From a virus, in IMG/VR virus record IMGVR_UViG_3300031758_000532, positions 1-25,192 of that record: a stretch of DNA of 25,192 nt, one strand, 5' to 3'. This document shows positions 4,284 to 25,192 of the stretch, in pieces (positions within the stretch are counted from its first letter, which is position 1; each line of letters opens with the position of its first letter). The notes under the pieces are model-generated. The model did not search any database. It had not been told where the DNA came from and worked only from the letters and a program-made list of their open reading frames with translations. The position numbers and the translations under genes were made by a program.

Positions 4284-5003
4284 ATGCCTTTACCTAAAAT
4301 TTCTACACCAACTTATGAACTTGAGTTGCCTTCAACTGGACAAACAATTAAGTACAGACCTTTTCTTGTAAAAGAAGAAAAACTACTAGTCATTGCATTG
4401 GAGTCTGAAGATACAAAACAGATTACTAATGCGATTAAAACTGTTATTAAAAATTGTATTGAGACAAAAGGAATTAAAGTAGAATCACTTCCAACTTTTG
4501 ATATTGAATTTCTTTTCTTGAATATTCGCGGAAAGTCAGTGGGAGAGGAAATCGAGGTTAATATCATCTGTCCTGACGATGGTGAAACTCAAGTTCCTGT
4601 GAAAATTAATGTAGACGATATTAAAGTTCAAAAAAATCCAGACCATAATAAGCAAATTAAACTTGATGATTCAATTATGATGGAAATGAAGTATCCATCA
4701 CTTGATCAGTTTATTAAGAGTAACTTTGATCTTTCTGCTGATAATACAATGGATCAATCATTTGATTTGATCTCATCTTGTATTGATAAAATTTATACAG
4801 AAGATGAGGTATGGTCTACTTCTGATGTAACTAAAAAAGAATTGGTTGAGTTTTTGGACCAAATGAATTCCTCACAGTTCAAAGAGATTGAAAAGTTCTT
4901 TGAGACGATGCCTAAACTATCTCATAAAATTAAAATTAAAAATCCAGTGACTGAAGTTGAAAGTGAAGTGACGTTAGAGGGTCTCTCAAGTTTTTTCGAA
5001 TAG
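4284..5003 (+). CDS. gp26: Baseplate hub assembly protein gp26-like (T4_baseplate family); N-terminal part of a possible frameshift chaperone
   Basis: A 239-residue protein starting MPLPKISTPTYELELPSTGQ, followed by IKYRPFLVKEEKLLVIALES, the hallmark opening of the phage T4 baseplate (gp26) family. The middle contains DIEFLFLNIRGKSVGEEIEV and a Cys-containing strand pair (NIICPDDGETQVPVKI); the C-terminal half is helical and acidic. gp26 is needed for T4 hub assembly, probably as a chaperone not kept in the virion. TAGGAT at 4275-4280 supports the start. Its final codons TTT TTC GAA TAG contain an exactly phased TTTTTTC slippery site; a -1 shift would read through into the next small gene and give a protein of 299 residues. 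Close neighbours are gp54 upstream and tape-measure-like genes downstream. Confidence 0.85.
   Translation: MPLPKISTPTYELELPSTGQTIKYRPFLVKEEKLLVIALESEDTKQITNAIKTVIKNCIETKGIKVESLPTFDIEFLFLNIRGKSVGEEIEVNIICPDDGETQVPVKINVDDIKVQKNPDHNKQIKLDDSIMMEMKYPSLDQFIKSNFDLSADNTMDQSFDLISSCIDKIYTEDEVWSTSDVTKKELVEFLDQMNSSQFKEIEKFFETMPKLSHKIKIKNPVTEVESEVTLEGLSSFFE
4991..4997 (+). other. Candidate -1 ribosomal frameshift site (TTTTTTC)
   Basis: The heptamer T TTT TTC is phased so that TTT and TTC are zero-frame codons of gp26 (residues 237-238), the canonical X XXY YYZ arrangement. The gp26 stop TAG is at 5001-5003. After a one-base backward slip the reading continues TTT CGA ATA GGA ATG and enters the 5006-5182 frame without meeting a stop. 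A gp26-gp51-like fusion of 238 + 3 + 58 = 299 residues would result. A purine-rich AGGA lies just downstream; I did not identify a clear stimulatory stem-loop. Confidence 0.6.
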
Positions 5004-5014
5004 GAATGAGTCAT

Positions 5015-5182
5015 ATGGACCTGGAGAGTTACTTCAGGTTAAATTTTTCTTTGATGCAGTATCATAAATATTCATTAACAGAGATTGAAAATATGATGCC
5101 TTGGGAAAGGGACATTTATGTGATTTTGTTGAAACAGCATCTGGAAGAAGAAGAACTCAAACACCAGCAACAACAGCGATAA
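5015..5182 (+). CDS. gp51: gp51-like hub assembly chaperone, small
   Basis: A short gene of 55 residues from the ATG at 5015 (58 from the ATG at 5006). The 5015 start is preferred because AGGA at 5002-5005 is 9 bases upstream, whereas it abuts the 5006 ATG. The product has the pattern MDLESYFRLNFSLMQYHKYS, then LTEIENMMPWERDIYVILL and a charged Q-rich tail. The 'L.M..YS..EIE.M.PWERDIY...L' segment resembles the short second frames of phage tail-assembly chaperones that precede tape-measure genes, and small cyanophage proteins labelled gp51. It is much shorter than T4 gp51 (about 249 residues), so the gp51 name is only tentative. The stop TAA is immediately followed by the ATG of the next gene. 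It is in the -1 frame relative to gp26. Confidence 0.72.
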   Translation: MDLESYFRLNFSLMQYHKYSLTEIENMMPWERDIYVILLKQHLEEEELKHQQQQR

Positions 5183-7462
5183 ATGAGATCAGTATCCGAA
5201 AAAATCGATGAAAGAATTTTAAGGCTACTGGGTCTTGAGGATGTTTTCGACATCGATTATGATACTTATCTAACCCTCCTTAAAGAAGCAATTGTTGCTG
5301 GTTCAAAAAAGTTACCTCAAGAGGAACTTGCACTACTTGCAAACGAAAGAAAAAGAATTCGTGGAAAGAAAGGTAGATTTAGTCCAAAGAAAGAAAAGAT
5401 AACTGCAAGTAAAGTAGCAACAACAAAATTACTCAAAGGAACTAAAAAGACACTATCAATTGCTCCTTCATCTACAACTTCTTTAGTGGAAAGTGGTGGT
5501 TTTGATGGGATTAAAAAAACATTAGATTCTATTCTTAAAACTTTAGGATCCAAGTTTAAGTTCGATCAAAAACAAGCAGACGAAGATAGAAAAGAAAAAG
5601 AAACAGAAAAAAGAGGAAAAAGAGAATCAACATTAGAAGGATTTAAAAAAGGTGTTGCTGGAATTGTATCGACAACTAAAAAGATGTTGTCTCCATTTCA
5701 AGCAATCATTGATCGTATCTGGAGGTTTGTATTCTTCACATTACTTGGTAGAGCATTTACCAAGTTCATGGATTGGATGAGTGATAAGGAGAATCAAAAT
5801 AAATTTAATTCATTTATAGAATTTTTAACAGACCATTGGCCCGCTCTTGCAGGACTTTACATTTTATTTGGAACTGGTTTTGGAAAATTAGTTCGTGGAT
5901 TATTGAAAGGTGTAACGAGAATGATTGTTGCACTTGCAATGAGCATTCCAAAAATATTTGGATTCATTCGTAAAAATAAAAAACTTTCTTTCTTAGCATT
6001 TGCCGCAGCACCTTTAGTTAGCAGAGAAATTGGAAATTTATTTACCGATAAACCCTCTCCAGAAGCAGGATTAATACCATCATCAAATCCAGAATTAGAT
6101 CAAGCAAAACAATCTACTGATCAAGCAGCAAACACTAAAGTTCCAACACTCAATCTTGGTGGAATGATCCCTTCTTTCAAAATGGGTGGAGTGACTCCTT
6201 TTGGTGGAATGGGAGGAATGGATTTTTATGGTGGTGTTCCAATTTCCGGTGCTGGTCAAGATAATACTCTGATTGCTGCAAAAACTGGTGAAGCAATTTT
6301 AACAGAAAGAGATCAACAAGATATTGGTCAAAGATATATTGATAGAACTACTGGACAACCTTTAAACATTCCTCAGTATCTTGCAGGAAGAAAACCAGGA
6401 TCTGTTGCTATGAGTAATTTAAGATTTCCTGGATTTGGTGGTGGATTTTCAAGTGGTGGAATGATTTCAAAGTTTAAGGATGGGGGTATTGTTGGTGGAT
6501 CTCTCAAAAGACAATCAACAGATCTAACAAAGTCTGCATCATCTTTAATGAAAGAAAATTGGAGTTATGCATCTAGGGGTGGAGATGCAAAAAATGGATG
6601 TGCTCCTGCAATTAATGAAGTCTATAAAAGAGCGGGAATATCTGTACCTTGGGGTTCAGTTATGAGACCAAATTATGTACCAGATATTCAATCATTTTTA
6701 TCTAAAAAGTTTTTAATGGTTTCAGAAAAACAAAGAAAACCAGGTGATATTGTAATATGGAAAGATACGGGAGATCCACCTGGTAGTGGAAAAGAACCAT
6801 ATGGTCATATTGGTATAGTGATGCCAGATGGTAGAATTGCAAACAATTCAACATCTAAAGGAACTTTTAGTAATTTAAATACTCCAGAACAAGCTAGATC
6901 CTGGTGGCCTAATACTCAAAGTTTAATATATTATAGGCACCCACAAGTTAATCAATCACCAACAAAACCAAATTCAAAACCAAATTCAAAACCAAATTTA
7001 AAACCTGGTGTAGTTGGTGGTTTATTTACAAATCTTCTTGGTGGTTTATCAATCAATAAAAAACAAGGTGGAGGACTGGTTAATTCTAATACTGGTATGG
7101 ATATTAGTGGAACTGCAGATACTCAATTAACTGGACTTCAACGTGGAGAATATGTACTTCCCGTAGATACAGTGTCTCGTCTTGGGGGACCATCATTAAT
7201 TGATCGTTTGGTCGCAATGACCGACAGCAATTCTACTCCATTTAAACAAGGTGCTTTAAATAGGCCTCAAATCACTCCTTACAGTTCTTCTGGATCAGGA
7301 TCTGGTGGTATGATTACTCTTCCGCCAATTACACAGTCTACAGGAGGATCAAGAGCAAGATCAGCAGGTCTTGGTGGTGGATCAGAAGTTCCTGAGTTCT
7401 CTGCAACTGCTCCAAATAATGATAGAGCAATGAATGCAAGTATCTATGGGTTGGTGGGATAA
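5183..7462 (+). CDS. Tape-measure-like tail protein with NlpC/P60 or CHAP-type peptidase domain
   Basis: A 759-residue protein starting MRSVSEKIDERILRLLGLED. Residues about 45-165 are very basic (KRIRGKKGRFSPKKEK) and Lys/Glu-rich. Hydrophobic helices follow at about 178-195, 220-236 and 240-262, as in tape-measure proteins. Glycine-rich stretches (GGMIPSFKMGGVTPFGGMGG) and the phrases GEAILTERDQQDIG and LQRGEYVLPVDTVSRLGGPS are also common in tape-measure proteins. Residues about 458-570 form a cysteine peptidase-like domain: GCAPAINEVYKRAGIS with C473, KPGDIVIWKD, then YGHIGIVMPDG with H542. This suggests it fills the tail lumen and cuts peptide cross-links during DNA entry. It takes the place expected for T4 gp29, but sequence identity to gp29 was not seen. 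A 12-base repeat lies at 6964-6999. Confidence 0.72.
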   Translation: MRSVSEKIDERILRLLGLEDVFDIDYDTYLTLLKEAIVAGSKKLPQEELALLANERKRIRGKKGRFSPKKEKITASKVATTKLLKGTKKTLSIAPSSTTSLVESGGFDGIKKTLDSILKTLGSKFKFDQKQADEDRKEKETEKRGKRESTLEGFKKGVAGIVSTTKKMLSPFQAIIDRIWRFVFFTLLGRAFTKFMDWMSDKENQNKFNSFIEFLTDHWPALAGLYILFGTGFGKLVRGLLKGVTRMIVALAMSIPKIFGFIRKNKKLSFLAFAAAPLVSREIGNLFTDKPSPEAGLIPSSNPELDQAKQSTDQAANTKVPTLNLGGMIPSFKMGGVTPFGGMGGMDFYGGVPISGAGQDNTLIAAKTGEAILTERDQQDIGQRYIDRTTGQPLNIPQYLAGRKPGSVAMSNLRFPGFGGGFSSGGMISKFKDGGIVGGSLKRQSTDLTKSASSLMKENWSYASRGGDAKNGCAPAINEVYKRAGISVPWGSVMRPNYVPDIQSFLSKKFLMVSEKQRKPGDIVIWKDTGDPPGSGKEPYGHIGIVMPDGRIANNSTSKGTFSNLNTPEQARSWWPNTQSLIYYRHPQVNQSPTKPNSKPNSKPNLKPGVVGGLFTNLLGGLSINKKQGGGLVNSNTGMDISGTADTQLTGLQRGEYVLPVDTVSRLGGPSLIDRLVAMTDSNSTPFKQGALNRPQITPYSSSGSGSGGMITLPPITQSTGGSRARSAGLGGGSEVPEFSATAPNNDRAMNASIYGLVG
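6964..6999 (+). repeat. Three 12-bp tandem repeats (Lys-Pro-Asn-Ser)
   Basis: The unit AAAACCAAATTC occurs three times (6964-6975, 6976-6987, 6988-6999), the last with one change. It encodes the KPNS linker that follows the peptidase domain in the 759-residue protein. The repeat keeps the reading frame, so copy-number change would only alter linker length. Confidence 0.85.
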
Positions 7463-7466
7463 GTAA

Positions 7467-10400
7467 ATGGCGAAAATCATAAATCCTTCAAAACTACTAG
7501 CATCATCAAAGTCTTCAGCAATTACAAAGATTGGAAAGTCTAATATTCTTGCAAAGACTTCTCCACTCTCAAAGGGTTTATTAGCAACAAGACAATCTAA
7601 AGATGCGAGCGATGCAAATAATAAGTTAGTTAATATAGATAAATTTTTAAAATCAGATCTTATAGTTTCCCAAAAAAAAGCAGAGGTCAAAAGAAAGGGT
7701 AAAGAAAAACAAGACTTTGATGAAGCAGAAAAGAAATTAGAAACTCCAAAATTAAAAGGATTTAAACTTCCATCACTTGGATTACCTTCTTTAGGATTTT
7801 TTGATCGTGTAAAAAGATTTCTTTTCTTTACTGCACTTGGATGGTTGCTTCCAAAAATTATAGAGTTTCTACCAAAACTTGAAGGGTTTGCAAAAATTGT
7901 AGGTGGAATCTATCAGTTTGCTGAAGGATTATTTGGTAGTCTTTTTAATGGTTTCATGAGTTTGGTGAAGTTTGGTGGAGACTTAAAAGATAAAACACTT
8001 GGATTTATAGCATCAGCAAAAGCAGGAGTTGGTGGAAACTATCAAAAGGAGTTTGATAAGTTAGAAAAGCAGTTCAATACTTTTGTAAATGCTTCTATTA
8101 TTGCTGGACTTGTTGGACTTGATATAGGTCTTGCTGCTGTTGATGAATTTAAAAAACAGAGGAAAGGGCAAAAACCTGCTGCGGGAAAACCTGCAGCAAA
8201 AGTAACACAAGGAAGAGGTGGAAAAAAACCGGGCGGAAAACCAAAAGTAACTACTGGTAAAGGTGGTAAGGTTCCTGGATGGTGGAATAATATTTTTAAA
8301 GGTCCTTTTGCAAAACTCAAAGGTCCTTTAAGTAAGTTTGCAGGTGCTGCAGTTCCTGGACTTGGTGCTGCTGTTGGTACTGCTGACGCTTTTGCAAGAT
8401 TTAAATCTGGAGATAAAATTGGAGGAACACTTGCTTCCATTTCAGCAACTCTTGATGGATTAGCAGCAGGGTCTGCAATTCTTGCATTAACAGGAGTTGG
8501 TGCTGCTGTTCCAGCTGCATTTGGTTTGGTAAGTATGGGTATTGATGTTGTTCTTTTAATTCGTGATATTATTAAAGCATTTTTTCCATATGTTCCAATG
8601 TTCTCTCGTGGAGGAAAAGTTGTTAAAAGATATCAAGGTGGTGGAACTACAAGAGGTGGAAGACCAGTAGGAGGACCAAAAAGAAGAACGATTACTCCAA
8701 CAAGAAGAAAACCACCAAGAGTTACAATACCAAAAACACAACCAGGTAAGGATGTTGGTGGTGAAAAGAAAGTTAAAGAGTTCTATGCTAAACCAGAAGA
8801 TCCTAGTAAGAAATATACAAGACCTGCTGGTGGTTGGTTGGCTAACCTAGGAAAAGAAAAGAAAGATTTAAGTGCATTTGATACACTGAAAAAAATGTCG
8901 GGCACATTAAAGTCTGACGAAACTCTTGCAAAAGGAATTCTTGGTGTAATGAGTTCTGGTATTGATATGGCTCTGGGTCAAAAACCAGACAAAAAAGTCT
9001 TTAAGGCTTTCTTTGATAGTATTGGATATATTGCAGATACTCTTGCAAATCAAAGAACAAGTAAGAGTATGAGTTCTTTAAGATCTCAAATTGGAGCATT
9101 TGCTGAAGGTGGTACAATTCCTTCAAGAGGATTAAGAGGAACTTATGGTGATGTAAATACTGGAGATATGCTTGCAAAACTTATTGGTCCTACTATAGAT
9201 CAAAGAGTAAATGAAGCAATTCAAAGTATTGAAAAGCAACTTCAAATGAAGAGTGGTGGTGAAAGACCTGGGAGTGGAGGTGGCGGAGGAGGAGGTGCTG
9301 ATGGTGGTGGAGGCTCTATTACATCCATTTCTATGTCTGGACTAGCTCCAGAAGATGTTGATGCATTAGGTAGAATGATTCAAGCAGAATCTGGAAATCA
9401 AAGTGGTTTAGGTAAAGCAGCTGTTCTTTCTGTAATCTTGAATAGATATAGATTAATTAAATCTGGAACAGCTTCTCCTGGTCAATTTGGTATTAGGGGA
9501 AAAAACAAAGATCAGGTTACAATTAGAGATATTCTTTTTGCGCCCAGTCAATTTTCTCCTTATGCAGATGGTAACTTTAACAGAACTAGTTCTGTTTCTG
9601 GAAGATCTGCATTATCTTCTGCAATTAAAGATGGTGGAAATGATCCAGAAAAATTTAAGGAAAACTTGATTAAATCTGGTTTGAATGAAAGAGATGCTGA
9701 TTATGTAGTTCGTTCAGTGTTTTTTTCAAATAGGAGCACTAGAACAAGTCAACCTGGAAGAACTAGAGAAGTTGCAGTTGGAGACCATGTATTTCAGCAA
9801 TCTACTGATGTTAAGTTGACTGGAACTATTGGAAAAGTAGATGCGGAGATTTCTGAAGAAACCGGTGGCGAAATAGGGAATAAAATTTTTCAAGCAGCTA
9901 AAAATCTAAAAGGATTAGACACAAGTTCTGGTCCTGGAGGTGGAAATGTTTCTTGTGTTTGGGTTGTAAATAAAGTTTTTTCTAAAGCAGGAGTTTCTAC
10001 TCCTTGGGGAAGTGCCCAATCTACAGATCAGGTAATCTATGGATTAGATAGAAAGGGATGGAAAAGAGTTTCTACTGGAGATGCAAAACCTGGAGATGTT
10101 TGGGTCTATGATGCAAATGATGGCCTTCGAGGCCACGTTGGAGTTATGATGGATAATGGAAGAGTGCTATCAAATTCTAGTAGTAGAGCAAGATTTTCTT
10201 GGGAAGCAACACCCGATCAATTATTGCAATCTTATCCAGCTAGTGGGATGACTCCCCCCGGCGGAGCATTTTATAGAGCTCCAACTGCACCTAAACCAAC
10301 AGAAGCAGTACAACCAAAATCAAGTACAGGAAGATTAACGCTTGAGCAGGCAAGAGACCTAGAAAGACGTTCAGTAAATTTAAAACTTGGAGATAAACCA

Positions 10401-10811
10401 ATTACAGTTCCTGGTATTGGTAGCATTCAAATGGGCAAAGATTTTTTTGGAAATTCTAAAAAGAAATATTATAATAAAGATGGTACAGAGATAACACAAC
10501 AACAATTTAATGATTTGATGAAAAAATATAAACTTCCAGAGGGATCTCAAATTGGATCAACTCCAACACAACCAGATATATCAAGGAAAAATATGCAAGG
10601 AGGTGGTCTCATTGGACCATCAAAACCAAATAGAGCAATTCCAAACTCCTTTGCTTCTTATGAAACTCCCGGAGGTGGAATGATGATCGCTATTCAACCT
10701 ATGATTATTGAAAGACAAGTTCCGGTTTCTGGTGGTGGAAATAAAATGATTGCATTCCCAGTTCCAGTTGCTGTAAATAGTAATATGGATTTAAGTTTAA
10801 GTAGAGGATAA
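7467..10811 (+). CDS. Tape-measure-like hub protein with SleB-like hydrolase and NlpC/P60-type peptidase domains
   Basis: A 1114-residue protein, the second of two related long genes. The N-terminal part has a conserved hydrophobic segment (FFDRVKRFLFFTALGWLLPK, near 110-130) like the first protein, then basic linkers and long hydrophobic stretches near 275-370. Residues about 630-760 look like a SleB-type cell-wall hydrolase: LGRMIQAESGNQSGLGKAAV with candidate catalytic E641, then LSVILNRYR and FAPSQFSPYADG. Residues about 815-945 form an NlpC/P60 or CHAP-like peptidase: NVSCVWVVNKVFSKAGVSTP with C830, KPGDVWVYDAND, then RGHVGVMMDNG with H890. A glycine tract (about 605-620) separates the regions. 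With both glycan-strand and peptide-bond activities it is a likely virion-associated lysin. The start is 4 bases after the upstream stop. Confidence 0.72.
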   Translation: MAKIINPSKLLASSKSSAITKIGKSNILAKTSPLSKGLLATRQSKDASDANNKLVNIDKFLKSDLIVSQKKAEVKRKGKEKQDFDEAEKKLETPKLKGFKLPSLGLPSLGFFDRVKRFLFFTALGWLLPKIIEFLPKLEGFAKIVGGIYQFAEGLFGSLFNGFMSLVKFGGDLKDKTLGFIASAKAGVGGNYQKEFDKLEKQFNTFVNASIIAGLVGLDIGLAAVDEFKKQRKGQKPAAGKPAAKVTQGRGGKKPGGKPKVTTGKGGKVPGWWNNIFKGPFAKLKGPLSKFAGAAVPGLGAAVGTADAFARFKSGDKIGGTLASISATLDGLAAGSAILALTGVGAAVPAAFGLVSMGIDVVLLIRDIIKAFFPYVPMFSRGGKVVKRYQGGGTTRGGRPVGGPKRRTITPTRRKPPRVTIPKTQPGKDVGGEKKVKEFYAKPEDPSKKYTRPAGGWLANLGKEKKDLSAFDTLKKMSGTLKSDETLAKGILGVMSSGIDMALGQKPDKKVFKAFFDSIGYIADTLANQRTSKSMSSLRSQIGAFAEGGTIPSRGLRGTYGDVNTGDMLAKLIGPTIDQRVNEAIQSIEKQLQMKSGGERPGSGGGGGGGADGGGGSITSISMSGLAPEDVDALGRMIQAESGNQSGLGKAAVLSVILNRYRLIKSGTASPGQFGIRGKNKDQVTIRDILFAPSQFSPYADGNFNRTSSVSGRSALSSAIKDGGNDPEKFKENLIKSGLNERDADYVVRSVFFSNRSTRTSQPGRTREVAVGDHVFQQSTDVKLTGTIGKVDAEISEETGGEIGNKIFQAAKNLKGLDTSSGPGGGNVSCVWVVNKVFSKAGVSTPWGSAQSTDQVIYGLDRKGWKRVSTGDAKPGDVWVYDANDGLRGHVGVMMDNGRVLSNSSSRARFSWEATPDQLLQSYPASGMTPPGGAFYRAPTAPKPTEAVQPKSSTGRLTLEQARDLERRSVNLKLGDKPITVPGIGSIQMGKDFFGNSKKKYYNKDGTEITQQQFNDLMKKYKLPEGSQIGSTPTQPDISRKNMQGGGLIGPSKPNRAIPNSFASYETPGGGMMIAIQPMIIERQVPVSGGGNKMIAFPVPVAVNSNMDLSLSRG

Positions 10812-17054: not shown

Positions 17055-17915
17055 ATGATTGAAACTACAAGAGATTATAATATTGGACTTATTAAGGTAG
17101 AACCTCCAGAATTACCATCAGATCCATATCCAATAACAATAATCACCTCAAATGGTTCTGATTATGAGTATGCAAGAAGACATACTACGTTAGAAGATCC
17201 TGCAGATGTTGGTAGCTTAGCGACAGGAAAACTTGCGATAGTTGGGATTCAACAATCTCCTAGTTTTTATAAATCTATTGATATTGTTGTTGGAATTGCA
17301 AGTGCTGTTACTCAGCACGCATCAGTTCATTCCGAACCATATCTTTTTACCGGAACAACAACACTTAATAACACCAGATTAGATAATGCATGGCACTTTA
17401 GAGCAGATCCTTTTACAGGAACTCAGGGTATTGGAGTTAGTTGGGGAGTAGTTGATGAATTTGGATTTGCTTTTTCAAATCCAACACTTGCAAATAATTC
17501 TTATGGATTTTACTATGGATCTCCTGGTTCTCCTGTAACTGGTGGAGACTGGGGAGTTTTTATTGATGATAATGTTTCAAATTACTTTAAAGATCTTGTT
17601 TTAATTGGTGATTATACATCAATAGGTGCTGGTGGTGCAACTGAGCCAGAACCAATTCTTCAAGTTTTTGATAATAATGGTAAGCAAGGAGAATATGTAG
17701 AAAGTATTGTTGGAATTGGAACTCGTCCTGATACCAGATATCAATTACATGTTCAAAAAAGTGCAAGTGCTACCTTGGCGGCAAGATTTGTGGGAAATGT
17801 TGCAGTAACAGGAAATGTTTCTGTCGGTGGAAATGAACTCACTATTAGTGTTGTTGGATCTAATTTAACTATATCTGTTGTTGGTGTTGGATCAACCACT
17901 TTAAAACTGGCATAA
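17055..17915 (+). CDS. Fibre-like structural protein, last gene of hub block
   Basis: A 286-residue, beta- and glycine-rich protein starting MIETTRDYNIGLIKVEPPEL. It has no clear enzyme motif. Fibre-type features are short strands with small residues, the segments TQGIGVSWGVVDEFGFAF and GTRPDTRYQLHVQKSASATL, and a C-terminal repeat (LTISVVGSN then LTISVVGVG). 'YQLHV.....A..AARF.GNV.VTGN' is typical of phage fibre stretches just before a C-terminal tip. A strong AAAGGAG at 17041-17047 with 7 bases spacing sets the start. It is the last gene before the accessory islet. I see no clear terminator directly after it. Confidence 0.7.
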   Translation: MIETTRDYNIGLIKVEPPELPSDPYPITIITSNGSDYEYARRHTTLEDPADVGSLATGKLAIVGIQQSPSFYKSIDIVVGIASAVTQHASVHSEPYLFTGTTTLNNTRLDNAWHFRADPFTGTQGIGVSWGVVDEFGFAFSNPTLANNSYGFYYGSPGSPVTGGDWGVFIDDNVSNYFKDLVLIGDYTSIGAGGATEPEPILQVFDNNGKQGEYVESIVGIGTRPDTRYQLHVQKSASATLAARFVGNVAVTGNVSVGGNELTISVVGSNLTISVVGVGSTTLKLA

Positions 17916-19828: not shown

Positions 19829-22800
19829 ATGGGTCTTTCACGCCTGGAAAATTTCTTGAAGTCTGCAAGAGGAACAATTCTCTACGTTGATCCAAGCAGT
19901 CTTGATTCTACTGATAGTATTGAAAACTCTGGAAATAGTCTAACAAGACCGTTTAAAACTATTCAAAGAGCACTGATTGAATCAGCAAGATTCTCATATC
20001 AGCGCGGTTTAGGTAATGATAGATTTAATAAGACCACTATTCTCTTATATCCAGGTGATCACATTGTAGATAACCGACCAGGATATATTCCAACAAGCAC
20101 AGGAACTTACTCAGAAAGAAGCGGGATCACAGGTCTCACAGATCTTACTCAATGGGATCTAGACACCAATTTTAATCTAGCATCTCCTGATAATACTCTC
20201 TACAAATTAAATTCTGTTTATGGTGGTGTGGTTATTCCAAGAGGAACATCCATTGTTGGTATGGATCTTCGTAAAACAAGAATTCGTCCCACATATGTTC
20301 CAAATCCAGAAAATGATAATATTGAAAGATCTTGTGTTTTTAGAGTAACTGGTGGATGTTATATTTGGCAGTTTACTATTCTTGATGCAGATCCAAACGG
20401 AACTTGCTATAAGGACTACACTTCAAATATCTTTGTTCCAAACTTCTCACACCACAAACTCTCAGGATTTGAATATGCTGATGGTGTAAATACTGTAAGA
20501 ATTCAAGATGATTTTCTTACCTATGACGAAACAAGTCCTAATTGGGCAGCCAGAACTGATCTGGACATGTATTATGAGAAAGTTGCTGCTGTCTATGGTG
20601 CTTCTTCTGGTAGAGAAATTCAACCTGATTATGATGGTGGAACAGCAACAGTAGATATTCAACCAGTTATTGACGAATATCGTATTGTAGGACCAAAAGG
20701 TGCTTCTGTTGGTATTACAAGCATTCGTTCTGGAGATGGAGTTACGCCAACAAAAACAATTACAGTAAACCTTGTAGAAACTGTAGAAGGATTAAGTGTT
20801 GATAGTCCAATTCAAATTAGTGGAGTAAGTGCTGCTGGTTATGATGGACAATACGTAATCTCTTCGGTCCCAAGTAATACTCAAGTTACATATCAGGTTC
20901 AAAATATACCCACAAATCCACTTCCAGGTGTTACGGGATCAACATTAGATCTTGTTGTTGATACAGTTACTTCAGCATCTCCATATATTTTCAACATCTC
21001 TCTTCGTTCTGTTTATGGAATGTGTGGATTGCTTGCAGATGGTGATAAGGCAACCGGATTTAAGTCAATGGTTGTTGCTCAATACACTGGTATTGGATTG
21101 CAGAAAGATGATAATGCTTTTGTGAAGTATGATACTGGATCTGGTGATTATAAGTACTCAAATACTGTCTCAAATCTTAATACAAATTCAAGGTCAAGAT
21201 TTAGACCAGAATATGAAAATTTCCATATCAAAGCAACTAATGATGCATTCTTACAGTTAGTATCAGTCTTTGCAATTGGATATGCACAGCACTTTGTTAC
21301 TGAAAATGGTGGAGATATTGCACTCAACAACTCAAACTCAAACTTTGGTGCAAAGGCACTAGTATCATCTGGATTTAGAAGAGAAGCATTCAATCAAGAT
21401 GATCATGGATATATTACCCACATTATTCCCCCAAAAGAAATAGAACTAGAACAAATCAGTGTTGAATTTAGTGCAATCGATGTGGGAATTACAACACTTA
21501 GATCTGCCGGTGCTGGTACAACTTCAAGTCTTTATCTTTATAATGAAACAAATGAGAATATTCCTCCAAAAGTTGTAATCGACGGATATCATATTGGTGC
21601 AAAACAGAATGAGCAACTGATTGTTCAAGTTTATCAAAATGGAGGAATATCAACTTATTCTTCCAGAATTGTAATGCCTTATGGACCTTATAATTCAACT
21701 CAATCTTCGTCAGAAAAATCATTTACTGTAGGAAGAAATGTTGTTGGAATTAATAGTATTGCAGCAAACACACTTACATTAACACAACAACATTCATTTA
21801 TTAACGGAGAATCGATTCGCATTATTGCTGATGATGGAAATCTTCCTGATGGTTTAAAAGCAAATCAAATTTATTATACTTCAACTGTTGGAATTACCAC
21901 AAATAATCAAATTTATATTTCAAAAACTTTAAATGATGCAATCAACGGAACACCTATTACAATTAATAATAAGGGTGGAACTCTAAGTATTGTAAGTAGA
22001 GTTAGTGATAAAAATCCAGGAGATATTGGACATCCAGTTCAATGGGATACTGGTGGATACTGGTATGTTAATGTTGATACTGCAAACAATGGAGTTTATG
22101 ATGCGATTAATTCTTTAGGTGTTGCTGGACTAGGAAATGCAACTCCAAGGTCATATGTAACTCGTAAACCAGATTCTAGAAGTTTAGTAGATACTCTTTA
22201 CAGAGTTCGTTATGTTCTTCCAAAAGATTCTCCAACTACAGCAAGACCTCCTGTTGATGGGTTTATTCTTCAGGAATCAAATGATATTATTGGTTCTGGA
22301 ACTAATGAAATCTCACAACTTTATAGTGGTTCAGGTTCAATAAATTCCACAGATTTAAGAAATCCAAAATTTATTGCAGAAGCATCTTGGTCCTCCAATG
22401 TATCCACAGTTAGATCAGAACTTCCTCATGGTCTAAAAGTTGGCGATGAAATAGAAATTGTAAATGTAACTCCAACAGGATACAATGGAACTTATACAGT
22501 AACTTCAATTGTAAGTGCAAAAGAATTTACTTATGCACTACCTTTGGCCACCACACCTGGTACATTTGCAAGCGACACATCAAATAGAACTTCAAGTCTC
22601 CCATACTTTAGAAGAAAGAAATATACCAAAACATATCAAGTTTATAGAACAGAAGAAATTCAACAGTACGTTGCTGGTTCTCAAGATGGTATCTACCACC
22701 TCACATTAATCAATTATGCAAACAGTCCAACAGTAACACCATTTACGGGGCAAAAATTTGCACAACCAATTGAAAATCTTTATCCACAGTCTAACAAAGA

Positions 22801-25192
22801 TAATCCAAATTCTGATCCAAGTGCATCAGACTCTCATGCTCTTCCAGACACGATTGGTCAAGTTGTAATTAATGATCCTCAGAATAGTATTACAAAAGAA
22901 ACATTAGAATCTCTTGTTGTTGGTTATGGTATTACAAACATTCGTTCATCTAGTGGAACAGCACACACGATTTATACTACAATTGATCACGGACTTGCTG
23001 GAATTACTACCGTAAGTATTGTAAGTGGTGGTAGTGCATATGGATCATCTGGAAGTTTCACAGGAAGTCTTTATAATGCTCAATTAGTTGGTTTTGCAGG
23101 AAGCACAACTGGTTCAAATGCAACTGCAAAGATTGATCTCACTGCTGGTGCAATTACTGGAGTCACAATTATTGATGGTGGTTCTGCTTATGGTATTGGA
23201 AACACTCTTACGGTTGTTGGCGTTGCTACAACTACAAGTCATGTAATTGGTGTCGTAAGAGTTGAGACAATTGCTGATAATATTGGCGACACCCTCAAGA
23301 TTTCTGGAATTTCCTCTGCATCAAACTCTGAGTATAATACTCTTTATAGAGTTTCTGGTATTTCAACTGGAAAATCAAAAGAGATTGATGTAATTTCTGC
23401 CGAAACTTTTGTAGGATTTTCAACATTAGGTTTAGGAGTAACAGTAACATCAAACGCTGGTTATATTCCAACAGGTAAAGTTCTTTCAGTCTCATCACTT
23501 ACTTATAGTTCAGTAACTGGTCTTGCTACTGTCGGATTTACAACCAGTCACGGATTTTCTGTTGATAATAAGATCAGTATTCGTGGTGCAAATGAAACGG
23601 TCTTTAATGGAGACTTTATTGTTAATAGAATTAACAGTTCAGTTGGAATTTCTTCTATAGTCGTCAATATTGGTATTGGAGCAACAACTTCAACTTCAGC
23701 AACAGGAACTTTATATGCCTATCGTCCTACTCTAACTTCTTATGGTGGCGATTTACTTGGAGATTCGGAAAATACTTCAGGTCGCTTAACTTATCAGTAT
23801 GCAGGAATTACAACAACAATCGGAAATTCAATTCTTCCAACCACAAATTTAGATACTAATGATTTAAACTACTTAAATATTTCAAATGCGGTTTCTCTTG
23901 GATTTAATCTTGGAGATTATTTACTTGTTAACAATGAAATCTTTAGAATTAGAAAAAATGTTTCTTCAGATTCTGTAAATGTCTATAGAGGACTTCTTGG
24001 TTCTCCAAGACAGGCACATGTTATTGGATCTGTTGTTCGTAGAATTAAAGTTACTCCAGTTGAACTTCGTCGTAACTCAATCATTCGTGCCTCAGGGCAT
24101 ACTTTTGAATATCTTGGTTTTGGTCCTGGTAATTATTCAACCTCATTACCAGACAAGCAAGATCGTGCTTTAAGTAATTCTGAGAAATTCCTTGCACAAG
24201 CAACAAAGACTGATGGTGGTATTGTTGTTTACACTGGTATGAACAGTGATGGTGATTTCTTTGCTGGTAACAAGAAGATTAACTCTGCAACAGGTAAAGA
24301 AGAGACTTTTGATACTCCTGTTCCAACCTATACAGGAGAAAAAGGTGGTGATACATTAAGCAACATTACCGATACTCAAAAATTATTTGTTACTGATTCT
24401 ATAAAGGTTGATGGTGGTAAAGATAAAAATACAATATCAGAATTTGATGGTCCTGTTGTTTTCAACAATAAAGTTACTTCAAACTCTGATGTTGAAGCAA
24501 ACTCATTCTTTATTCAAGGAAATGAAGAGATATCTCGTCGCATTTCTATTAATTATGAGAAACCTGATTTTGCAGGAAATTATGGTGATATTGAATTTAA
24601 CAGTGAACCAGAAAAATCAGGGTTTGCTGGTTGGATTTATACTCTACAAAATGAATGGGTTCCTTGGGGATTTATTGGTGGTCCTGGTGTTGGTATTGCA
24701 TCTGCTGGGTCTTATGTTGGTTTTGCAACTCTAATTAATCTTGTAACTGAGGGTATTAATCTTAATGTTGATTATAATTCACTAACAGGAATTAGCACTC
24801 TTACTTTTGATACAAATCCTAGAGTTGCAATTACTACTGGTGCTTTTGCTCAAAACCTTGTTGGTCTTGTAACGACAATTAACTTTATTGGTGCTCTTGT
24901 AGAGGTAACTGGAAGTCCTTCTGGAATTGCAACTGTAAATATTAGCCCAGTAAGTCTTGGTGGAAGTTTACCTGGATTACCTTTCAACTCCTTGCAGTTT
25001 AATGATAATGGTGCCTTTAACGGCGCTTCCAATTCTTATTATGATGAAACACTAAATCTATTGCATTTTGGAGCATATCCAAATCAAGCAAATACTCTTA
25101 CAGTTACAAATGATGGTAGATTAGGTTTCTCATCTTATTCACCATCAGCAAAAGTTGAAATTGTTGCAGATAATGAAACTTCACTATACATT
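19829..25192 (+). CDS. Giant virion structural or tail fibre protein, 3' end cut off by window
   Basis: The frame is open from the ATG at 19829 to the window end, 1788 codons with no stop, so the protein is larger still. Start: MGLSRLENFLKSARGTILYV. Residues about 15-90 look like the entry of a right-handed beta-helix (TRPFKTIQRALIESARFSYQ, TTILLYPGDHIVDNRPGY). The body is long beta-rich repeats with GVGITT-like strands and glycine phrases (IVSGGSAYGSSGS, IIDGGSAYGIGNT). Two 'VGD.I.I....P..YNGTYTV.SI' modules occur near residues 870-900 and again near 1250-1270 (VDNKISIRGANETVFNGDFI). Further on, FAGWIYTLQNEWVPWGFIGG and EFDGPVVFNNKVTSNSDVEA are phrases typical of cyanophage fibre ends. It is not T4 gp37 by clear match. 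ATAAG upstream gives only a weak ribosome site. Confidence 0.82.
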   Translation, partial: MGLSRLENFLKSARGTILYVDPSSLDSTDSIENSGNSLTRPFKTIQRALIESARFSYQRGLGNDRFNKTTILLYPGDHIVDNRPGYIPTSTGTYSERSGITGLTDLTQWDLDTNFNLASPDNTLYKLNSVYGGVVIPRGTSIVGMDLRKTRIRPTYVPNPENDNIERSCVFRVTGGCYIWQFTILDADPNGTCYKDYTSNIFVPNFSHHKLSGFEYADGVNTVRIQDDFLTYDETSPNWAARTDLDMYYEKVAAVYGASSGREIQPDYDGGTATVDIQPVIDEYRIVGPKGASVGITSIRSGDGVTPTKTITVNLVETVEGLSVDSPIQISGVSAAGYDGQYVISSVPSNTQVTYQVQNIPTNPLPGVTGSTLDLVVDTVTSASPYIFNISLRSVYGMCGLLADGDKATGFKSMVVAQYTGIGLQKDDNAFVKYDTGSGDYKYSNTVSNLNTNSRSRFRPEYENFHIKATNDAFLQLVSVFAIGYAQHFVTENGGDIALNNSNSNFGAKALVSSGFRREAFNQDDHGYITHIIPPKEIELEQISVEFSAIDVGITTLRSAGAGTTSSLYLYNETNENIPPKVVIDGYHIGAKQNEQLIVQVYQNGGISTYSSRIVMPYGPYNSTQSSSEKSFTVGRNVVGINSIAANTLTLTQQHSFINGESIRIIADDGNLPDGLKANQIYYTSTVGITTNNQIYISKTLNDAINGTPITINNKGGTLSIVSRVSDKNPGDIGHPVQWDTGGYWYVNVDTANNGVYDAINSLGVAGLGNATPRSYVTRKPDSRSLVDTLYRVRYVLPKDSPTTARPPVDGFILQESNDIIGSGTNEISQLYSGSGSINSTDLRNPKFIAEASWSSNVSTVRSELPHGLKVGDEIEIVNVTPTGYNGTYTVTSIVSAKEFTYALPLATTPGTFASDTSNRTSSLPYFRRKKYTKTYQVYRTEEIQQYVAGSQDGIYHLTLINYANSPTVTPFTGQKFAQPIENLYPQSNKDNPNSDPSASDSHALPDTIGQVVINDPQNSITKETLESLVVGYGITNIRSSSGTAHTIYTTIDHGLAGITTVSIVSGGSAYGSSGSFTGSLYNAQLVGFAGSTTGSNATAKIDLTAGAITGVTIIDGGSAYGIGNTLTVVGVATTTSHVIGVVRVETIADNIGDTLKISGISSASNSEYNTLYRVSGISTGKSKEIDVISAETFVGFSTLGLGVTVTSNAGYIPTGKVLSVSSLTYSSVTGLATVGFTTSHGFSVDNKISIRGANETVFNGDFIVNRINSSVGISSIVVNIGIGATTSTSATGTLYAYRPTLTSYGGDLLGDSENTSGRLTYQYAGITTTIGNSILPTTNLDTNDLNYLNISNAVSLGFNLGDYLLVNNEIFRIRKNVSSDSVNVYRGLLGSPRQAHVIGSVVRRIKVTPVELRRNSIIRASGHTFEYLGFGPGNYSTSLPDKQDRALSNSEKFLAQATKTDGGIVVYTGMNSDGDFFAGNKKINSATGKEETFDTPVPTYTGEKGGDTLSNITDTQKLFVTDSIKVDGGKDKNTISEFDGPVVFNNKVTSNSDVEANSFFIQGNEEISRRISINYEKPDFAGNYGDIEFNSEPEKSGFAGWIYTLQNEWVPWGFIGGPGVGIASAGSYVGFATLINLVTEGINLNVDYNSLTGISTLTFDTNPRVAITTGAFAQNLVGLVTTINFIGALVEVTGSPSGIATVNISPVSLGGSLPGLPFNSLQFNDNGAFNGASNSYYDETLNLLHFGAYPNQANTLTVTNDGRLGFSSYSPSAKVEIVADNETSLYI

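Follow-up and report, generated by a model that had tools for sequence, protein, structure and literature searches.

A gp26-gp51 junction in a T4-like phage fragment with the features of a programmed −1 frameshift site for tail assembly chaperones

Introduction

Frameshifting is reportedly conserved in several groups of T4-like phages and not in the group of T4 itself, as the abstract of Vladimirov, Gautam and Davidson is said to state. In that article, gp26 and gp51 were named as the tail assembly chaperones (TACs) of T4-like phages (Vladimirov, Gautam and Davidson, Virology 2022;566:9-15). Two other papers refer to it: one credits it with the poly-T −1 slippery sequences of T4-like TAC-N genes (PMC12846349), and the paper describing PRFect cites it for T4-like phages in which frameshifting gives way to a pair of genes, one short and the other longer and fused (PMC10885494). 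In Vandenendeviridae and Andersonviridae, a TAC frameshift is associated with an invariant GTTTTT (PMC12846349).

Here, we describe the gp26-gp51 junction of a viral DNA fragment of 25,192 nucleotides from IMG/VR (record IMGVR_UViG_3300031758_000532, positions 1 to 25,192), hereafter called the window. A sequence-only reading had drawn attention to a slippery site at this junction and supposed that a gp26/gp51 frameshift had not been described. This supposition fell, as Vladimirov, Gautam and Davidson (2022), cited by PMC12846349, came earlier. Since the idea is already published, the window is a further example of it and not a discovery. The features of the locus are collected in Table 1.

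Table 1. Features of the gp26-gp51 junction and the adjoining tail gene (window coordinates)
Feature	Position	Strand	Basis or detail
gp26 ORF, 239 aa, putative short tail assembly chaperone (TAC-N)	4284..5003	+	PF12322, PHROG 150
Slippery heptamer T TTT TTC, P/A sites TTT TTC -> TTT TTT	4991..4997	+	Read from sequence and conserved in relatives
−1 frame CGA ATA GGA ATG ... TAA; C-terminal domain (TAC-C, gp51-like) of the predicted 299-aa fusion	4997..5182	+	
gp26 zero-frame stop TAG, bypassed in the proposed frameshift	5001..5003	+	Read from sequence
Candidate independent gp51-frame starts, ATG 5006 and ATG 5015	5006..5017	+	AGGA at 5002-5005
9-bp RNA hairpin, candidate stimulatory element	5018..5040	+	5018-5026 pairs with 5032-5040; 5-nt loop
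Large tail gene, 759 aa, candidate tape measure protein	5183..7462	+	Position, size, weak PHROG matches

Results

The gp26 protein matched the family PF12322 (T4_baseplate) with an E value of 2.3e-77 and 260 bits (cut-off 24.5), the one PF12322 match in the 25-kb record, and PHROG 150 (baseplate hub) with an E value of 1.3e-82. The open reading frame at 5006-5182 matched PHROG 634 (baseplate hub assembly catalyst, gp51; E 6.4e-28) and also aligned with the end of PHROG 150 (E 6.8e-5), which suggests that some PHROG 150 members read as one protein. The predicted model of gp26 had a pLDDT of 87, and its matches in BFVD were other gp26 proteins; a PDB sequence search found no relative. When the model was compared with PDB folds, two chains of the HK97 tail assembly chaperone 2OB9 came out on top (probability 0.41 and 0.54, E 1.4-1.8), followed by 3FGX (probability 0.38), and the rest of the matches listed had probabilities of at most 0.08. 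None of the PDB fold matches was significant, with E values of about 1-2, and the match to a TAC fold is thus only suggestive.

The candidate tape measure gene begins at the base right after the gp51-frame stop, and its product gave weak PHROG matches to tape measure proteins and endolysins and a weak CHAP match. This gene and the next large tail gene (7467-10811) both gave weak matches to peptidoglycan hydrolases, the domains weakly matched across the two being CHAP, Amidase_5, NlpC/P60 and Hydrolase_2. A further open reading frame, 19829-25192, encodes at least 1788 residues and is cut off by the window's end.

The gp26-frame codons at 4989-5003 are AGT TTT TTC GAA TAG. The sequence-only reading had placed T TTT TTC in the gp26 zero frame, with an uninterrupted −1 frame that yields a 299-residue gp26-gp51 fusion, and both claims proved correct: the heptamer has the phase X XXY YYZ, the stop follows 10 nt further on, and the −1 frame, open already 34 nt upstream of the gp26 stop, continues to TAA at 5180-5182. 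The peptide spanning the fusion junction is ...GLSSFFRIGMSHMDLESYFR. Among 44 in-phase heptamers of the X XXY YYZ type in the genes of the window, this one alone has a −1 frame that enters another coding region. In a single sequence, an open −1 frame of this kind has a chance probability of about 1-3% and is weak evidence by itself, so that the comparison with relatives carries the case. The only other heptamer at a gene end, TTTAAAA at 17900-17906, lies in phase 13 nt before the stop of gene 17055-17915; its −1 frame closes after 12 codons, and it is probably due to chance.

Homologous junctions were searched for with peptide patterns that excluded the slippery site, and the loci were therefore not selected for the heptamer. 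In a first set of relatives, TTTTTTC lay precisely 10 nt upstream of the gp26 stop wherever this stop was readable. Of 166 distinct homologous junctions, 160 have it exactly at −10. Stenotrophomonas, Aeromonas and Vibrio phages, whose gp26 is only about 24-35% identical to that of the window, share the site. Phage S-CRM01 has TTTTTTC at −7, one codon later than usual, phage C48C1 has TTTTTTT at −7 instead of TTTTTTC at −10, and four junctions (4/166), all from distant phages (VAP7, Kuja, K364 and Cygsa01), lack the heptamer and keep the −1 offset of the gp26 and gp51 frames. The −1 frame was open for at least 140 nt beyond the gp26 stop at 244 of 249 loci, and the remaining five run off their contigs. 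A comparison of gp26-gp51 junctions for heptamer and frame offset, proposed beforehand as a check, thus found both conserved (160/166; −1 relation). Judged by this comparison of sequences, the heptamer at the end of gp26 is not a chance occurrence. In VAP7 and Kuja, which are Ackermannviridae, and in K364, TTTTTTC is replaced by GTTTTTC or CTTTTT[CG]; these motifs resemble the GTTTTT of Vandenendeviridae and possibly reflect a different mode of slippage.

The arrangement in T4 is different: gp26 and gp51 are encoded by separate, divergently transcribed genes on opposite strands. T4 gp26 ends in GAG TTC TTT GAG, where both Phe residues are retained in codons that are not slippery. PF12322 matched T4 twice, in gp26 and in the first 200 residues of gp51, as compared to a single match in each of the other phage records (17/17). 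T4 gp51 thus consists of a complete PF12322 domain plus TAC-C, and T4 has two members of the family. When the fused cyanophage protein was used as a profile, its N-terminal part aligned with T4 gp26, and T4 gp51 aligned (residues 123-245) across the junction. These homologies indicate that TAC-N and TAC-NC are encoded in T4 as two genes, whereas the other phages apparently rely on frameshifting within one gene. The 25-kb record of the window contains no second PF12322 gene carrying TAC-C like that of T4.

RNA folding around the junction was compared with synonymous codon randomisation across a 384-nt stretch. Excess folding was greatest in the scan window that begins 3 nt past the first base of the gp26 stop (160 sequences, mean z −1.9), where 59% of the sequences had z below −1.5, and it was gone 24 nt further on (z ~0). 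The peak survived grouping at 80% identity (z −2.1, sem 0.18, 69 groups). The excess was strong in the cluster that contains the window (n=95, z −2.6), and the P-RSM4/S-RIM2-like cluster showed little structure at the same place (n=57, z about −0.7; −0.66). In this latter cluster, z was −1.85 for the scan window starting at −27. P-RSM4/S-RIM2-like loci (e.g. L115 and L192) had their strongest excess over and upstream of the slippery site, not downstream, in a region that begins roughly 27 nt ahead of the gp26 stop and ends 15 nt past it.

When all column pairs were scanned without bias, two pairs of one hairpin ranked highest. The hairpin GGTCC-ATAT-GGACC (alignment columns 18-31, 10-nt spacer) had compensatory changes in 5/5 pairs. 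It gave 42 compensatory cells compared to 12.8 in shuffled alignments (0/500) and exceeded all slid versions, in counts that are inflated by the kinship of the sequences; it occurs mostly within the clade of the window. In the window itself it is broken (3/5 pairs). The window's own folding reached z of about −4 against synonymous codon randomisation, and its hairpin at 5018-5040 starts 20 nt after the heptamer, outside the usual spacer of 5-9 nt between a slippery heptamer and a stimulatory structure. Strong hairpins of their own were found in other lineages, e.g. S-PM2 and ACG-2014f. Depending on the cyanophage lineage, predicted hairpins start approximately 5, 9, 10 or 20 nt past the site, and two of them overlap and are mutually exclusive. 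RNAalifold found no consensus structure in a 78-sequence alignment because the lineages use different hairpins; a count of named hairpins and the synonymous-codon control were used in its place. An Rfam search returned nothing meaningful. A negative association between hairpins 1 and 2 (rho −0.44 in the first 77 sequences) failed to recur in 76 new sequences, mostly of other clades (rho +0.19), and therefore holds only as an observation within the clade. The count for hairpin 2 came from the same sequences in which this hairpin had been noticed, and its control is weaker, the slide by +1 being nearly equal.

The junction could instead be a case of translational coupling, in which ribosomes stop at the end of gp26 and begin again at an ATG that overlaps the stop or lies close to it, giving free gp51 with no frameshift, TTTTTTC being mere conserved Phe codons. 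The window does have ATG 5006 and ATG 5015 with AGGA upstream, a stop-start overlap (e.g. TAATG) occurs in 8 of 166 junctions and an ATG at +5 in 61 of 166, and free gp51 genes are annotated in database records. Yet no ATG, GTG or TTG precedes the conserved TAC-C domain in the gp51 frame of 51 out of 173 distinct junctions, and a start with a 4-base Shine-Dalgarno match is present in only 10 of the 173, the window among them, and lacking in 163. Moreover, the two Phe codons are fixed as TTT TTC after a T in nearly all relatives, whereas the other Phe codons of gp26 are mixed (TTT:TTC = 642:267, in an alignment restricted to heptamer-bearing junctions), and T4 gp51 is made as a fusion to a gp26-like domain. 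We therefore consider coupling very improbable.

Both products might also be made, namely a frameshifted TAC-NC and, in phages with ATG 5015, a certain amount of free gp51 initiated there. AGGA lies 9 nt upstream of ATG 5015, as this explanation would have it, but neither the start nor its Shine-Dalgarno sequence is conserved in relatives, and we regard joint production as unlikely. The gp51 start claimed earlier at 5015 is thus real as a feature of the window and is not conserved among its relatives, 51/173 of which lack any start, so that gp51 made on its own is probably not produced in general. Database annotation of gp51 varies from a full gene to an internal methionine (S-RIM2) or omission (S-CAM4), as expected if gp51 is not an independent gene, and a gp26-gp51 join was found in none of the annotated records read. 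Such inconsistency, with gp51 started internally or left out, was seen in S-RIM2, S-CAM4 and C48C1. A different origin of the −1 product would be transcriptional slippage, whereby RNA polymerase shifts some mRNAs into the −1 frame on the T run. A run of six T is indeed present, but it is short for polymerase, the slippage of which usually needs 8 or more A or T. The near-invariant C at position 7 and phase of the heptamer, and the structure peak 3' of the site, both fit tRNA slippage, and slippage by polymerase is hardly credible here.

Discussion

From the observed site, its phase and conservation, the open −1 frame, the excess of structure and the permanent fusion in T4 gp51, we infer that ribosomes slip at this junction: the heptamer at 4991-4997 is very probably a programmed −1 ribosomal frameshift site for making the tail assembly chaperones TAC-N and TAC-NC. 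The majority of ribosomes would terminate at TAG 5001 to give the short chaperone TAC-N (gp26). A minority, with two Phe-tRNAs on TTT TTC, would slip back one base, read on through CGA ATA GGA ATG and yield the 299-residue long form TAC-NC (gp26 plus gp51), at a rate that is probably boosted by an RNA hairpin just downstream. If lambda gpG/gpGT is a guide, TAC-N and TAC-NC may coat and recruit the tape measure protein during tail assembly.

On this interpretation, the small 'gp51' found next to gp26 in hundreds of cyanophage genomes would be the end piece of a frameshifted protein; some annotated records start gp51 too late or omit it. It is possible, and we suggest it tentatively, that each lineage has its own stimulatory RNA, which is replaced over time while the heptamer stays invariant, so that the same frameshift is kept and only its enhancer is rebuilt. 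If so, hairpin turnover perhaps retunes the ratio of TAC-N to TAC-NC. The lineage-specific hairpins may be a new detail.

The window and T4 would offer two clearly distinct solutions for the same chaperone pair: frameshifting, by which one gene gives two products, and the two genes of T4. The gp26 and gp51 proteins of T4 are homologous to those described here, but in T4 gp51 a gp26-like domain is permanently joined to TAC-C, and T4 has no slippery site. Hence the equation of gp26/gp51 with a T4-type G/GT, made in the sequence-only reading, is strongly supported by conservation as regards the −1 fusion and does not extend to T4 itself, which uses two genes. The slippery site of P2, T TTT TTN, is of the same type as the T TTT TTC of the window, and that of lambda, GGGAAAG, is unlike it. 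A −1 frameshift in lambda gpG/gpGT and P2 gpE/E' was reportedly described by Xu, Hendrix and Duda in 2004. The window resembles both in a predicted −1 slip near the end of a short chaperone gene, a C-terminally extended long form and a position just upstream of a gene that, in the window, is a candidate tape measure gene, and it is likened to them by layout and site. The TAC genes of Vandenendeviridae and Andersonviridae are alike in having −1 frameshifting at the end of TAC-N and an open −1 frame, but differ in phage group and in motif, their GTTTTT resembling that of the Ackermannviridae relatives. Closest are the T4-like TACs, for which the earlier work reportedly gives the same gene pair and the same inferred TAC-N and TAC-NC roles (Vladimirov, Gautam and Davidson, 2022); the hairpins and the 166 junctions surveyed here may add to that description.
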